Assembly (NCBI RefSeq): GCF_015709515.1
Contig: NZ_JADNQZ010000056.1
Span: 124,001 to 188,000 of the forward strand
Direction of reading: 5' to 3'
From: Methylocystis sp. H62
GTDB taxonomy: Bacteria; Pseudomonadota; Alphaproteobacteria; Rhizobiales; Beijerinckiaceae
DNA length: 64,000 nucleotides
Positions 48,284 through 54,586 of this stretch are shown piece after piece. Made by a program: the position numbers and the translations under genes. Numbering within the stretch: the stretch's first letter is position 1; the number at the start of each line of letters is the position of its first letter. The notes below the pieces were generated by a model. That model did no database searches. It was not told the DNA's origin and worked only from the letters and a program-made list of their open reading frames with translations.

Positions 48284-48805
48284 ATGCAGAAGTCCCATGA
48301 AACGATCGACCGACTGTTTAGAAGCCATCATCGCGATCTGATAACGCGGGCGCGCCGCGTGATCGGCTCGGGAGACGCCGAAGACCTGGTCCAGGAAGCC
48401 TATCTCAAAATGCTGGAAAGCGACCGTGGCCAACTGATTTCGAATGCGCGCGGCTATGTGTCGAAGATGACGTGCACGCTCGCGATCGACAATCTTCGCA
48501 GGCAAAGAACGCATGCCAGAGCGCTGGCCGAAGACGGCGCATGGTTCCAATCGCCCGCTCGAGACACGCAAATCACAACGGCCCTCGACGCGTTCGGCCT
48601 GGCGCGGGACGTTCAAGCAGCCCTGGCGCGGCTGCCGCGATGCTGTCGTCAGATATTCCTGATGAGCCGAATTCTGGGTTTCAGCCATTCGGAGATCGCG
48701 CAGGAACTCAGCGTTTCCTTAAAAAGCGATCAATCGCAACCTCGGTCGCGCGCTCGAGCATTTCGGTCGCGCCTTCGAGATCTCGCCTTCGAGCGTCCCG
48801 ATTGA
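48284..48805 (+). pseudogene. mbnI: ECF (FecI-type) sigma factor, MbnI-like, frameshifted in region 4
   Basis: 173 aa as read, from the ATG with ggagg 5 nt upstream. Sigma region 2 is intact (DRLFRSHHRDLITRARRV, SGDAEDLVQEAYLKML, AIDNLRRQR). Region 4 starts normally (LPRCCRQIFLMSRILGFSHSEIAQELSVSLK), but after residue 147 the frame becomes Ser/Arg-rich nonsense and stops 26 codons later. Skipping one base in the A5 run at 48721-48725 restores AINRNLGRALEHFGRAF, the expected recognition helix. So the gene carries an apparent 1-nt insertion: true inactivation, sequencing error or slippage site. It precedes mbnA. Confidence 0.8.
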
Positions 48806-48962
48806 GTCGCAGAGCGTTAAGCCGCAGGCCGCGTCAAGCGACGCCTTGGTCGAAGCTGCCGCGCCGCGACTTCGACATGCGCCAAACATCAAAATCTCGA
48901 CGGCTCGAAAAAATTCTCGCCCCAAGCTGTCCGATTTTTGCGGCCTCGCTCGTCATACCATT

Positions 48963-48987
48963 CGGGTTCCGCGTTCTGCGGAACCCG
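48963..48987 (+). promoter_or_regulatory. 10-bp inverted repeat upstream of mbnA
   Basis: Perfect stem CGGGTTCCGC / GCGGAACCCG with loop gttct, 39-63 nt before the mbnA ATG. No T-run follows, so it is not a plain terminator. The right arm contains GGAACC, which resembles ECF sigma -35 elements. Could be an operator or leader hairpin. Confidence 0.65.
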
Positions 48988-49003
48988 TCTGGACATTCCA
49001 GAC
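48987..49003 (+). promoter_or_regulatory. Second inverted repeat upstream of mbnA
   Basis: GTCTGGA cat TCCAGAC, perfect 7-bp arms with a 3-nt spacer, directly abutting the larger repeat and ending 22 nt before the mbnA start. The spacing of a palindromic dimer site suits a transcription factor. The mbnA RBS (agaggga) follows. Confidence 0.55.
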
Positions 49004-51878: not shown

Positions 51879-53521
51879 GCGTGGAGCGCGTTCCTGTTCT
51901 CATCGTCGGCGCCGGCTATGCCGGTCTGTCGGCGGCCACTCTGCTTGCATGGCGTGGCGTTCCCTGCATCCTCGTGGAGCGGCGCGCGTCGACGTCGCGC
52001 CTGCCGAAAGCGCATGGCGTCAACAGGCGCACCATGGAGCTTTTGCGCGTCGTCGAAGGCTTGGAGGATGCGCTGTTTGCGTCAAGCCGCGCCGGCGCCA
52101 ATGAATCAACGCTCGTCATCGCCGAGACCGTGACGAGTCCGCCGATCGAAACGCTTATCACCAAGAATTCGCTCGACGCGACGCGCATCTCGCCCAGCAA
52201 AGTATGCACCGCGGGCCAGGATCGAGTCGAACCCGTGTTGCTGCGCTTCGCCCGCGAGAAAGGCGCCGACGTTCGATTTTCGACGGCGCTGGCGCGCTTC
52301 TCGCAGCGGGACGACGGCGTGGAAGCGATCTTGCGCGACGAAGCGTCGGGACAAGAGACGACGGTTGTCGCCGACTACATGATCGCCGCCGACGGCGCCG
52401 GCGGAACGATCCGCCACGCCGGCGGGGTGAAGATGGATGGGCCGGGATTTATCGCGGATGCGATGGCGGTGCTGTTCGAGGCTGATCTCAGCGCGATCCT
52501 GCCAACCGATGGATTCATGCTCTACTACTTGCGCAACGCGGCGTTCAGCGGCGCCTTCGTCACCTGCGACGAGCCCAACCACGCCCTGATCAATGTTGAT
52601 TATGATTCCTCCCGCGAAGGGGAGTCAGATTTCGATGAAGAGCGATGCAAAGACTTCGTTCGCCGATTTCTCGGCGTCCGCGACCTTGCGGTGAAAATTC
52701 TCGACGTTCGTCCCTGGCAAATGGCCGCTCTTCTCGCCGATCGCATGTCCTTCGGCCGCGTGTTTCTTGCCGGCGACTGCGCGCATATCGTGCCGCCGGT
52801 CGGCGGCTTGGGCGGACAGACCGCGATACAGGACTCGGCCGACCTGGCGTGGAAACTGGCGCTTGTCGTCAAGGGCCAGGCCGCGACTTCACTACTCGAC
52901 AGCTATAGCGTCGAGCGCAGGCCGGTGGCCCGGATCGCGATCGGGCGAGCCCTCGCCAATTACGTCGAACGCATGCTCCCCGATCGTCAGGACTTGCGCA
53001 TCCGGGAAGATGAATACGGCCTTGTCGAAACCGCGATCGGCTATCGGTATCGCTCGGACGTGATCGTCGCCGATGAGGCCGACGACGGCGCGCCGGTCGA
53101 AGATCCTCTTCGTCCAAGCGGCGCGCCGGGTACGCGCCTCGCGCATGTCTGGCTGCGGCGGGGCGAGGAGACGATCTCCTCTCACGATCTGATCGGACGC
53201 GACTTCATGCTCTTCGCCGGACCGAACGGCGGCGACTGGATCGAGGCGGCGCAGCGTGTCGGCCTCCGTTCGGGAACGCCGCTTAGCGTCTGCCGCTTGG
53301 GATTTGACGTCGACGATCCCGAAGGGTTGTTTCTGCCGCGTCTCGGCGTTTCGCCTGAAGGCGCGCTGCTCGTGCGGCCCGACGGGTTCATCTGCTGGCG
53401 TTCGCGAGGCCGAAGCTCCGACGCTCTCGCGACGCTCGATGCGAGTTTTGCGCGCGTGCGCGGTTTCGATACGCGCCAATCCAGCGACAGTCTCAAGGCT
53501 ACGCTCGTCGACGCAAGCTAG
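51875..53521 (+). CDS. mbnF: MbnF, FAD-dependent monooxygenase
   Basis: 548 aa. PHBH-type flavoprotein: N-terminal VLIVGAGYAGLSAATLLAW, mid DYMIAADGAGGTIRHAGG and the ribityl-binding GDCAHIVPPVGGLGGQTAIQDSADLAWKLAL, plus a C-terminal thioredoxin-like domain typical of large aromatic hydroxylase relatives. In Mbn loci that have it, MbnF is proposed to further oxidise a heterocycle (to a pyrazinedione-type ring). It overlaps mbnM by 4 nt. Confidence 0.92.
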   Translation: MSVERVPVLIVGAGYAGLSAATLLAWRGVPCILVERRASTSRLPKAHGVNRRTMELLRVVEGLEDALFASSRAGANESTLVIAETVTSPPIETLITKNSLDATRISPSKVCTAGQDRVEPVLLRFAREKGADVRFSTALARFSQRDDGVEAILRDEASGQETTVVADYMIAADGAGGTIRHAGGVKMDGPGFIADAMAVLFEADLSAILPTDGFMLYYLRNAAFSGAFVTCDEPNHALINVDYDSSREGESDFDEERCKDFVRRFLGVRDLAVKILDVRPWQMAALLADRMSFGRVFLAGDCAHIVPPVGGLGGQTAIQDSADLAWKLALVVKGQAATSLLDSYSVERRPVARIAIGRALANYVERMLPDRQDLRIREDEYGLVETAIGYRYRSDVIVADEADDGAPVEDPLRPSGAPGTRLAHVWLRRGEETISSHDLIGRDFMLFAGPNGGDWIEAAQRVGLRSGTPLSVCRLGFDVDDPEGLFLPRLGVSPEGALLVRPDGFICWRSRGRSSDALATLDASFARVRGFDTRQSSDSLKATLVDAS

Positions 53522-53575
53522 GCGCAACCGCCTCATCCTGCTCCAAGAAACGTCATCGCAAAGGAGAGTGGTCGA

Positions 53576-54586
53576 ATGTCCATCCTTTCGCCGGAACTCC
53601 ACGCGCCGTCCCGGTTGGAGCCCCTCCTGGCGGTCGATCCGAAACGACTCGAAACGATCCAGACGCCCTACCAGGACTTCAACCGGCTATCGCGCGCCAG
53701 CGGGATTTTGGAATCCCTACCCCTTCGGGCGAAGCGTCAATTCCGCTCCTACTATTTTTTCAATCCGCCAAAATGGCGGGTGTGGGCGCGGACCCTCGGC
53801 TCCAGCCAACGCATGGAGCCGTCCTTCGCATCGATCGGCGCGGTGCGCTCCGGCACGTCTTTTCTCTCCTCCTATATTCTTCAGCATCCGCATGTCGTCC
53901 TGCCCCTGTCGAAGGAAATTTCCTTCACGGATACGATGCGCGAGCTGATGGCGTATTTTCCGACGCTCGCGGCGCAAAGGGCGGCGGAGCGGCGCAACGG
54001 CGGCGCCGTCACTGGCTATTGCACGCCGGTGATGCCCAATCCCCGTTGGATATTTCTGGCGAAGTCGATGTTTCCGAATCTGCGCATCATCTGCGTTCTG
54101 CGCGATCCGGTTGAGCGCACGTTTTCGCATTGGCGGTGGGATCAGAAGCGCTTCCAAAGCCGAAGGGCGAAGGATCCGCACTGGAAGGGTTTTCCAGATT
54201 TTGAAACCTTCATGAGAGTGGAAAAAGAAGCGATACGTGCTGGCGGGATGGAGCCGCATGCGTTCTCGGGCGCGCACGCCGGCTATTTGCGCCATAGCAT
54301 CTACGCCCCCTTCATGCGTCTGCTCTTCGAGCAATTCGGCAGAGACCGCGTTTTCGTCGTCGATGCGGCAAAGTTTTTCGAAGACCCCCAATCGACCGCG
54401 AAGCGGATTTTCGCCTTCCTTGGCCTGCCTGAGGTCGAGCCGCTGGTGATCGAGGAGCGCAATCCCGGGCCTTCCGGCGAGCTCGACGACGGCGCTCGGG
54501 AAAATTTGGCCGAGTTCTTCCGGCCCTACAATGAAGAGCTCTATGCTCTGCTTGATAAGGATTTCGGCTGGGGCGCCGCCCGATAA
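53576..54586 (+). CDS. mbnS: MbnS, PAPS-dependent sulfotransferase
   Basis: 336 aa with a clear RBS (aaggag). The 5'-PAPS loop is [16 protein letters not shown]; the 3'-phosphate site includes [16 protein letters not shown]; then [15 protein letters not shown] and [18 protein letters not shown] blocks. In Methylocystis-type methanobactins MbnS sulfates the core Thr, which is present here (ATC). Last gene of the plus arm, 54 nt after mbnF. Confidence 0.93.

Follow-up and report, generated by a model that had tools for sequence, protein, structure and literature searches.

A Methylocystis group-II methanobactin operon with an apparently new core peptide, conflicting gene trees and a broken sigma factor-MbnA frame

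Methanobactins are among the strongest natural binders of Cu(I), according to the available text of PMC5947558, and one of them has been investigated in rodents that have Wilson disease (PMC13378520, available text). The described systems closest to the locus reported here are the group-II operons of Methylocystis (SC2, rosea SV97 and SB2), which comprise mbnA, mbnB, mbnC, mbnM, mbnF and mbnS in the accessible parts of PMC3621798 and PMC10167746; their precursors carry the leader MTIRIAKRITLNV, two Cys and a Thr before the second Cys, and mbnPH and a TonB-dependent receptor gene lie nearby. A reading frame joining a sigma factor to MbnA was reported in 2013 in the annotation of two strains, its meaning being left open, and the family NF040705 (sigma_mbnA, "methanobactin precursor domain-containing sigma factor") describes such proteins. 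The DNA analysed in this study, hereafter the window, is a 64,000-nucleotide stretch of Methylocystis sp. H62 (assembly GCF_015709515.1, contig NZ_JADNQZ010000056.1), a Methylocystis-like genome (G000) of 4.54 Mb in 59 contigs, and it holds a methanobactin operon at 48284-54586. From its sequence, this operon is best read as a Methylocystis group-II methanobactin cluster, a known kind of system, with an apparently new core, signs of an exchange of matched alleles and a broken fused frame. We regard it as likely that this is a working operon whose chalkophore type was changed by recombination, in which MbnA would be made alone and the fusion was lost in this assembly.

The first-pass annotation had proposed a complete methanobactin operon, and matches to family profiles confirmed that mbnA, mbnB, mbnC, mbnM, mbnF and mbnS are all present in the order proposed. 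All lie on the forward strand: mbnA (49026..49118; TIGR04071 50.9 bits, cut-off 24; PF25751 50.9 bits, cut-off 27), mbnB, encoding the multinuclear iron oxidase (49197..50024; TIGR04159 445.7 bits, cut-off 325), mbnC (50002..50583, with a possible alternative GTG start upstream at 49981; TIGR04160 284 bits, cut-off 185), mbnM, encoding a multidrug and toxic compound extrusion (MATE) exporter (50580..51878; NF045578 499.9 bits, cut-off 285, searched from 50583), mbnF, encoding a flavin adenine dinucleotide (FAD) monooxygenase (51875..53521; NF045577 869.6 bits, cut-off 800), and mbnS (53576..54586). No NCBIfam model matched MbnS, whose identity as a sulfotransferase comes instead from Pfam PF13469 and PF00685. 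Since both profile matches of MbnA exceed their cut-offs, mbnA is no chance short open reading frame. The overlapping starts described earlier were found for mbnB/mbnC, mbnC/mbnM and mbnM/mbnF, whereas gaps of 78 nt and 54 nt separate mbnA from mbnB and mbnF from mbnS, respectively. Moreover, position 48284, taken before as the beginning of the operon, is the start of mbnI, an extracytoplasmic function (ECF) sigma factor gene with a broken frame that had gone unmentioned. The features of group II that were found are an MbnA with a Lys/Arg-rich leader and a Cys core, MbnB and MbnC directly after it, MbnM, MbnF and MbnS, as well as mbnPH and a TonB-dependent receptor without a signalling domain nearby (the profile scan covered receptor 1 of the two described below). 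In addition, the residues reported for MbnB in the available text of PMC8888699, eight iron ligands and a catalytic Asp, map to invariant columns of an 11-row alignment. Unlike the described Methylocystis operons, the window has the core DCGATCSATNG instead of (R/M)CASTC..., a leader with SR instead of GR, an exporter allele from a different lineage, a tandem pair of receptors and a broken sigma-MbnA fusion.

The precursor, MTIRIAKRITLNVLSRAGADCGATCSATNG, has exactly the sequence given by the first-pass annotation, whose observations of a Methylocystis-type leader, two Cys, a Thr retained before the second Cys and a sulfotransferase gene were likewise borne out. An MbnB search of 397 family genomes returned 30 loci and 29 precursor genes (one locus begins at mbnB), to which 11 precursors from named genomes and 2 from a search of 39 genomes of the genus were added, giving 42. 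The closest named MbnB relatives were mostly Methylocystis (rosea SV97, silviterrae, and strains B8 and L43; the own record of the strain was possibly omitted). The core search recommended earlier found DCGATCSATNG only in the window and in none of the other 41 precursors, and a text search with most of the subscription literature outside its coverage retrieved no paper with this core. Among the 19 Methylocystis genomes with mbnA of the sigma type, the cores were RCASTCAATNG (8), MCASTCAATNG (4), RCASTCAMTNG (2) and, in one genome each, RCASTCAVSNG, RCASTCSVSNG, HCASTCSATNG (locus L041), DCASVCTSVNG (locus L044, of genome G366) and DCGATCSATNG. The acidic residue before the first Cys, to which the first-pass annotation had drawn attention, is not peculiar to the window, as it also occurs in ADCGTACWG (G078), ADCGTACWA (G302) and the G366 core. 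The window shares further features with G366: the otherwise constant GR of the leader is SR in these two genomes only, and the 27 bases from SR to the first Cys codon (GTT CTC AGC CGC GCC GGC GCC GAC TGC) are identical in both. As a separate observation, the G366 core has Val at the position of the sulfated Thr, and mbnS is nonetheless present at that locus.

In the window, mbnI (48284..48805, forward strand; Pfam sigma regions 2 and 4) is broken near 48720, within region 4.2, and ends early at 48805. The rest of the sigma tail and a linker in frame with MbnA are found in a 131-aa open frame (48723..49118, forward strand) that covers NF040705 positions 140-272. Both parts of the family are thus present with the frame broken between them, and NF040705 gives two partial matches in two frames, of 284.9 and 173.5 bits, each under the cut-off of 350 bits. 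Among the 39 genomes of the genus, searched with TIGR04071 for mbnA and with NF040705 for the fusion, 22 carried mbnA and 18 an unbroken fusion above the respective cut-offs; the mbnA genomes without a fusion were G215, G302 and G247, which have short free precursors, and the window genome with its two-piece match. Of the 19 Methylocystis genomes with sigma-type mbnA, 18 therefore have an intact fusion, the window being the sole exception. Base-by-base reading of 16 relatives showed an unbroken fusion in each, with a length that is a multiple of three. The linkers occur in eight lengths, all divisible by three, and contain no stop in 1254 codons of the fused frame versus 9 and 16 in the other two frames, although the rows are related and these counts are not independent. 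A class-wide NF040705 search of 385 genomes returned the own genome and seven weak sigma matches, and nothing else. Separately, genome G177 (L116, L117) holds two extra sigma factors (G177:C1:48609-49085 and G177:C3:79397-79873), each scoring ~117 bits to the sigma part of NF040705; these are 236-aa open frames without an MbnA end.

The break could be a sequencing or assembly error, the fusion being intact in the organism, a possibility that deserves weight even if we hold it to be somewhat doubtful. The frame change amounts to one position within a run of A, and the stretch past it is still near the relatives, with 93.6% identity to L036 over 48684-48984. However, the 18 codons past the break carry 4-5 amino-acid changes against each of seven relatives, versus 0-2 among those relatives, which fits relaxed constraint. 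These counts are small, and the silent changes overlap (2-4 versus 0-4). On these few sites, the comparison favours a real loss of the fusion over an error.

The linker contains candidate signals for a separate production of MbnA. In 14 close relatives, the ratio of nonsynonymous to synonymous change (dN/dS) is 0.16 in the sigma part, as under protein selection, and 0.77 in the initial stretch of the linker (8 rows; bootstrap 0.67-1.24), which is nearly neutral. In the last 48 linker codons, the proportion of synonymous differences (pS) is 0.20 overall and falls to 0.07, versus 0.35 in the sigma part; because silent sites also change little there, the conserved linker end is taken to carry a signal in DNA or RNA. 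The stretch that varies least within this region of low synonymous change is the element TGTCCG-N17-CGTC (48928..48954, forward strand; degenerate form TGTCYG-N17-CGTC), located 71 nt before mbnA, which in our reading resembles an ECF-type promoter. The window and all close relatives compared (14 of 14) carry it at 71 nt without a mismatch. Two distant fused loci depart from it at one base and have it at 72 nt, and two loci with unfused mbnA (L021, L023) show a perfect copy, at 77 and 79 nt. The element does not accompany mbnA in general: L022 has it at a different distance and with one mismatch, and 2-5 mismatches were counted in the other Methylosinus-type and non-methanotroph loci compared. 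A likely ribosome-binding site, GAGGGAAG (49013..49020, forward strand), identified by eye, precedes mbnA in the aligned rows. Given the embedded promoter-like element and this site, MbnA can be made alone.

Other signals in this region, all on the forward strand, were considered. The element matches once in the window, and a genome-wide search yielded no second site that convinces (the other 34 of 35 matches had 2-3 mismatches; the backwards control gave 6), so an mbn regulon served by it is unsupported. Hairpin B (CGTCTGG-N5-CCAGACG, 48986..49004) is a suggestive candidate for a 5' untranslated region (UTR) stem, since its variants in close relatives stay paired through G-U; no two-sided changes were seen, and two distant rows are unpaired as aligned. 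The corresponding palindrome (48987-49003) gained no support as a regulon operator, all its other matches in the window having at least 3 mismatches. Hairpin A, a 9-bp stem at 48964..48986, is weakly conserved and was not retained as evidence: it reached z -4.46 (48958-49028), yet only 82.5% of cells were paired, with two-sided change in 1 of 9 pairs. The best supported structure is a hairpin with a 13-bp stem between mbnA and mbnB (49130..49162), in which 96.8% of cells are paired and 5 of 13 pairs show two-sided changes; none of 500 shuffles scored as high on four of five measures, and 8 of 500 did so on the fifth. Such a hairpin would tilt the output of a single transcript towards precursor over enzyme.

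The conservation of the fusion also invites the proposal that in the relatives it acts as a copper sensor, in which copper binding by the MbnA tail, in modified or unmodified form, would switch the sigma factor, the window strain having lost this switch. The unbroken frame in all sigma-type genomes except the window, the stop-free linkers and the eight lengths divisible by three would suit such a role. A precedent is found in the CorE-type ECF sigma factor of Myxococcus, in which a Cys-rich tail switches the sigma factor according to the available text of PMC8999054; the fusion tail of the relatives likewise ends in a Cys pair that is in principle copper-capable. Unlike CorE, the Cys pattern is different, the tail is the precursor of a ribosomally synthesized and post-translationally modified peptide (RiPP), and regulation by the fusion is putative. 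However, the variable linker is near neutral and the conserved part resembles DNA or RNA signals rather than protein; the predicted tail of the rosea fusion is disordered, with a predicted local distance difference test (pLDDT) value <50 over 166-277 and a mean of 52.6 for the fusion as a whole; and MbnA has its own likely ribosome-binding site. For these reasons, the sensor is considered unlikely. A more elaborate form of it, slightly less probable still, would have one gene yield both a fused sigma-MbnA with a copper-sensing tail, which MbnBC could modify, and free MbnA through the internal promoter and start, so that the window strain would have lost the sensor while keeping and exchanging the chalkophore module. 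If this were true, the cell would sense copper through the very group exported in the chalkophore.

Returning to the operon as a whole, the ancestry of its genes is mosaic. The mbnM protein shares 86-87% identity with L044 and L041 versus 72-77% with each of 13 other close relatives. The flanking genes have the opposite order: the moaA, HIBADH (3-hydroxyisobutyrate dehydrogenase) and mbnH proteins are 93-97% identical to those of the rosea/silviterrae group. Within the operon, the mbnS protein is again nearer to this group, sharing 83-87% with it (79% with L043) versus 74-75% with L041 and L044. At the start of the sigma gene (first 300 bases), sliding nucleotide identity to seven background relatives was 93-98%; it was 75-88% at 49.1-53.1 kb and 85-95% at 53.1-53.9 kb and dropped once more in mbnS. 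L041 and L044 were clearly nearest to the window at 49.9-51.8 kb. In the mbnM DNA tree, the window groups with L041 and L044 (support 100/100), and a topology placing it with the background group was rejected by the approximately unbiased (AU) test (p-AU 5e-44). In the moaA tree, the window groups with L036, L059, L039 and L040 (97/96), and its grouping with L041 and L044 was rejected (p-AU 0.0004); the tested topology of the window with the background group was rejected as well (p 0.016), which speaks against that grouping as it was defined, with L043 omitted although it lies inside the group in the tree. A gene 20 kb away showed 94-98% identity to nine background genomes versus 89% to G361, and no match to it was found in the incomplete G366.

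The receptors point the same way. Receptor 1, the mbnT candidate (42077..44545, reverse strand), showed the plug and barrel domains in the Pfam scan, in which a signalling domain was absent, and receptor 2 (39510..41960, reverse strand) is a tandem copy 78% identical to it by BLAST. A FecIRA-like regulation by MbnI, MbnR and MbnT would call for a signalling domain at the N-terminus of the receptor, which receptor 1 lacks in that scan, and for a FecR-like protein encoded next to it. In the receptor tree, receptor 1 is sister of the first of two adjacent G366 receptors (98/99). Receptor 2 clusters with the other G366 receptor, the second of the two, and with the G361 receptor (100/99); a shorter C-terminal tree without long-branched rows recovered the same two groups (97/93 and 99/97). 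Nine of 11 relatives with R- or M-first cores and an upstream flank have a single receptor at this place, and none is found there in the distant L045 and L062. G307 (RCASTCSVSNG) was excluded from these counts, as it has further receptor pieces on small contigs. Three genomes of one mbnM clade, all with H- or D-first cores, thus appear to share a receptor lineage, and the set of cargo, exporter and receptor looks exchanged between Methylocystis lineages. The first-pass annotation had suggested that the Asp might alter receptor choice; the receptors differ and, by ancestry, track core type, which fits a changed choice. Receptor net charge, crudely counted, was discarded as a signal of specificity, since 15 receptors span -2 to +6 and the D- and H-core lineages are not separated. 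A search of titles and abstract openings, with most of the subscription literature outside its coverage, found none on methanobactin module exchange or on the function of the sigma fusion.

Product, export and receptor alleles are known to travel together in siderophore systems, for example among pyoverdine types, in which cargo and receptor co-vary. The window resembles these in the co-occurrence of the three kinds of allele and differs from them in that its product, of putative specificity, is a copper peptide made by the ribosome and MbnBC.

Several points weigh against an exchanged group-II module. First, the core lacks the motif C(G/A/S)(S/T), which all the precursors of PMC3621798 are said to hold in its available text, having only CGA and CSA; by eye, this motif is missing in 4 of the 42 precursors (window, L021, L047 and L049); the rule therefore has exceptions and was not taken as defining. 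Second, mbnB shows no clear donor, with 81-88% identity to 13 relatives over 49.3-50.0 kb, and the exchanged block is therefore itself mosaic. Third, rosea and silviterrae are also only 81-90% identical to each other over 49.1-53.1 kb, and allele exchange may be common instead of special to the window. Fourth, the main receptor tree includes three long-branched rows, for which the tool gave a warning. Fifth, the receptors of G361 and G366, whose assemblies are fragmented (G366 being 59% complete), lie on contigs other than that carrying mbnB and the mbn genes, and the gene that follows the receptor pair in the window is absent from the 7-8 kb past them. Finally, the first tandem member in G361 is a fragment, a receptor end directly before its own receptor, and is divergent (41-49% to 15 receptors).

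These features could be taken for ordinary divergence, that is, a vertically inherited operon with neutral drift of the core and odd tree positions caused by fast-evolving genes. Between other relatives, too, the mbn block has diverged further than its flanks, and receptors vary everywhere, those of the window being 74-80% identical to those of relatives. This explanation is nevertheless improbable, as it would have to accommodate the mbnM identities, the opposite order of the flanking genes and the conflict, with strong support, between the mbnM and moaA trees. It is about equally improbable that the operon is dying, the loss of MbnI stopping transcription and the cluster becoming a pseudogene, for even if mbnI is broken and both NF040705 matches of the genome at E <= 1e-30 are fragments of this very gene, mbnA, mbnB, mbnC, mbnM and mbnF are intact above their family cut-offs, mbnS encodes a full-length sulfotransferase, both the promoter-like element and the hairpin between mbnA and mbnB persist, and the presence of the element before the unfused mbnA of L021 and L023 means that another sigma factor may serve it.

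Besides the two receptors, mbnH, encoding a di-heme enzyme (44576..45754; TIGR04039 478.3 bits), and mbnP (45751..46914; TIGR04052 265.8 bits), both above their cut-offs, lie outside the 48284-54586 interval on the opposite strand, the four genes spanning 39510-46914. Between mbnP and mbnI, two divergent genes encode DUF2946-type small proteins (46990-47535, reverse strand; 47619-48143, forward strand), one above the Pfam cut-off (24.9 versus 23.7) and the other below it (19.7). Downstream of mbnS, moaA is followed by the HIBADH gene (both named by eye from their translations), as in SC2 and rosea; the available text of PMC3621798 describes this arrangement in two Methylocystis operons. Gene order and content varied elsewhere among the loci. 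At L037 (3555-7737), mbnM follows mbnS (order B, C, F, S, M, moaA), an arrangement seen in none of the other loci compared, and in L033, L034, L035 and L043, ~740-850 nt separate the aligned mbnF and mbnS ends, leaving room for an extra gene. In L030 (G174), the MbnB frame has one internal TAG stop, and its upstream sequence is the same as that of Methylosinus sp. Sm6, L053.

The sequences show the gene content, the mosaic ancestry, the conservation of the fusion and its break in this assembly, whereas chemistry, promoter use, receptor specificity and the direction of transfer are set out here as we infer them. MbnA would probably be translated from its own ribosome-binding site, on a transcript from the promoter within the sigma linker. 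MbnC would bind the leader and MbnB would oxidise the Asp-Cys and Thr-Cys pairs to two heterocycle-thioamide pairs, following the mechanism reported in the available text of PMC8888699. MbnF, which the accessible part of PMC10167746 reports for operons with a pyrazinedione or imidazolone first ring, would convert or finish the first ring, which would retain the Asp side chain, and MbnS would sulfate Thr5 of the core. With two four-hydrogen oxidations, one sulfate and the loss of two more hydrogens, the predicted neutral monoisotopic mass would be 796.110 for DCGATCSA, 897.158 with T added and 1068.222 with TNG added; by this calculation RCASTCAA comes to 851.200, in agreement with the mass of the SB2 product. 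As family membership suggests, the product would leave the cell through MbnM, and its copper form would return through the two tandem TonB-dependent receptors. In this proposal, mbnA, mbnC-mbnM and the receptor pair have a common ancestry with Methylocystis lineages with H- or D-first cores, and mbnH, mbnP, the N-terminal part of the sigma factor, moaA and the genome background belong with the rosea/silviterrae group.

An Asp at the first ring position in a Methylocystis-type operon would widen the known range of methanobactins. The sigma-MbnA frame is conserved throughout the genus and hides a promoter-like element, and one natural strain breaks it. Moreover, the conflicting gene trees suggest that product, exporter and receptor alleles pass as a set from one Methylocystis lineage to another, which would make the matching of receptor and product directly testable.

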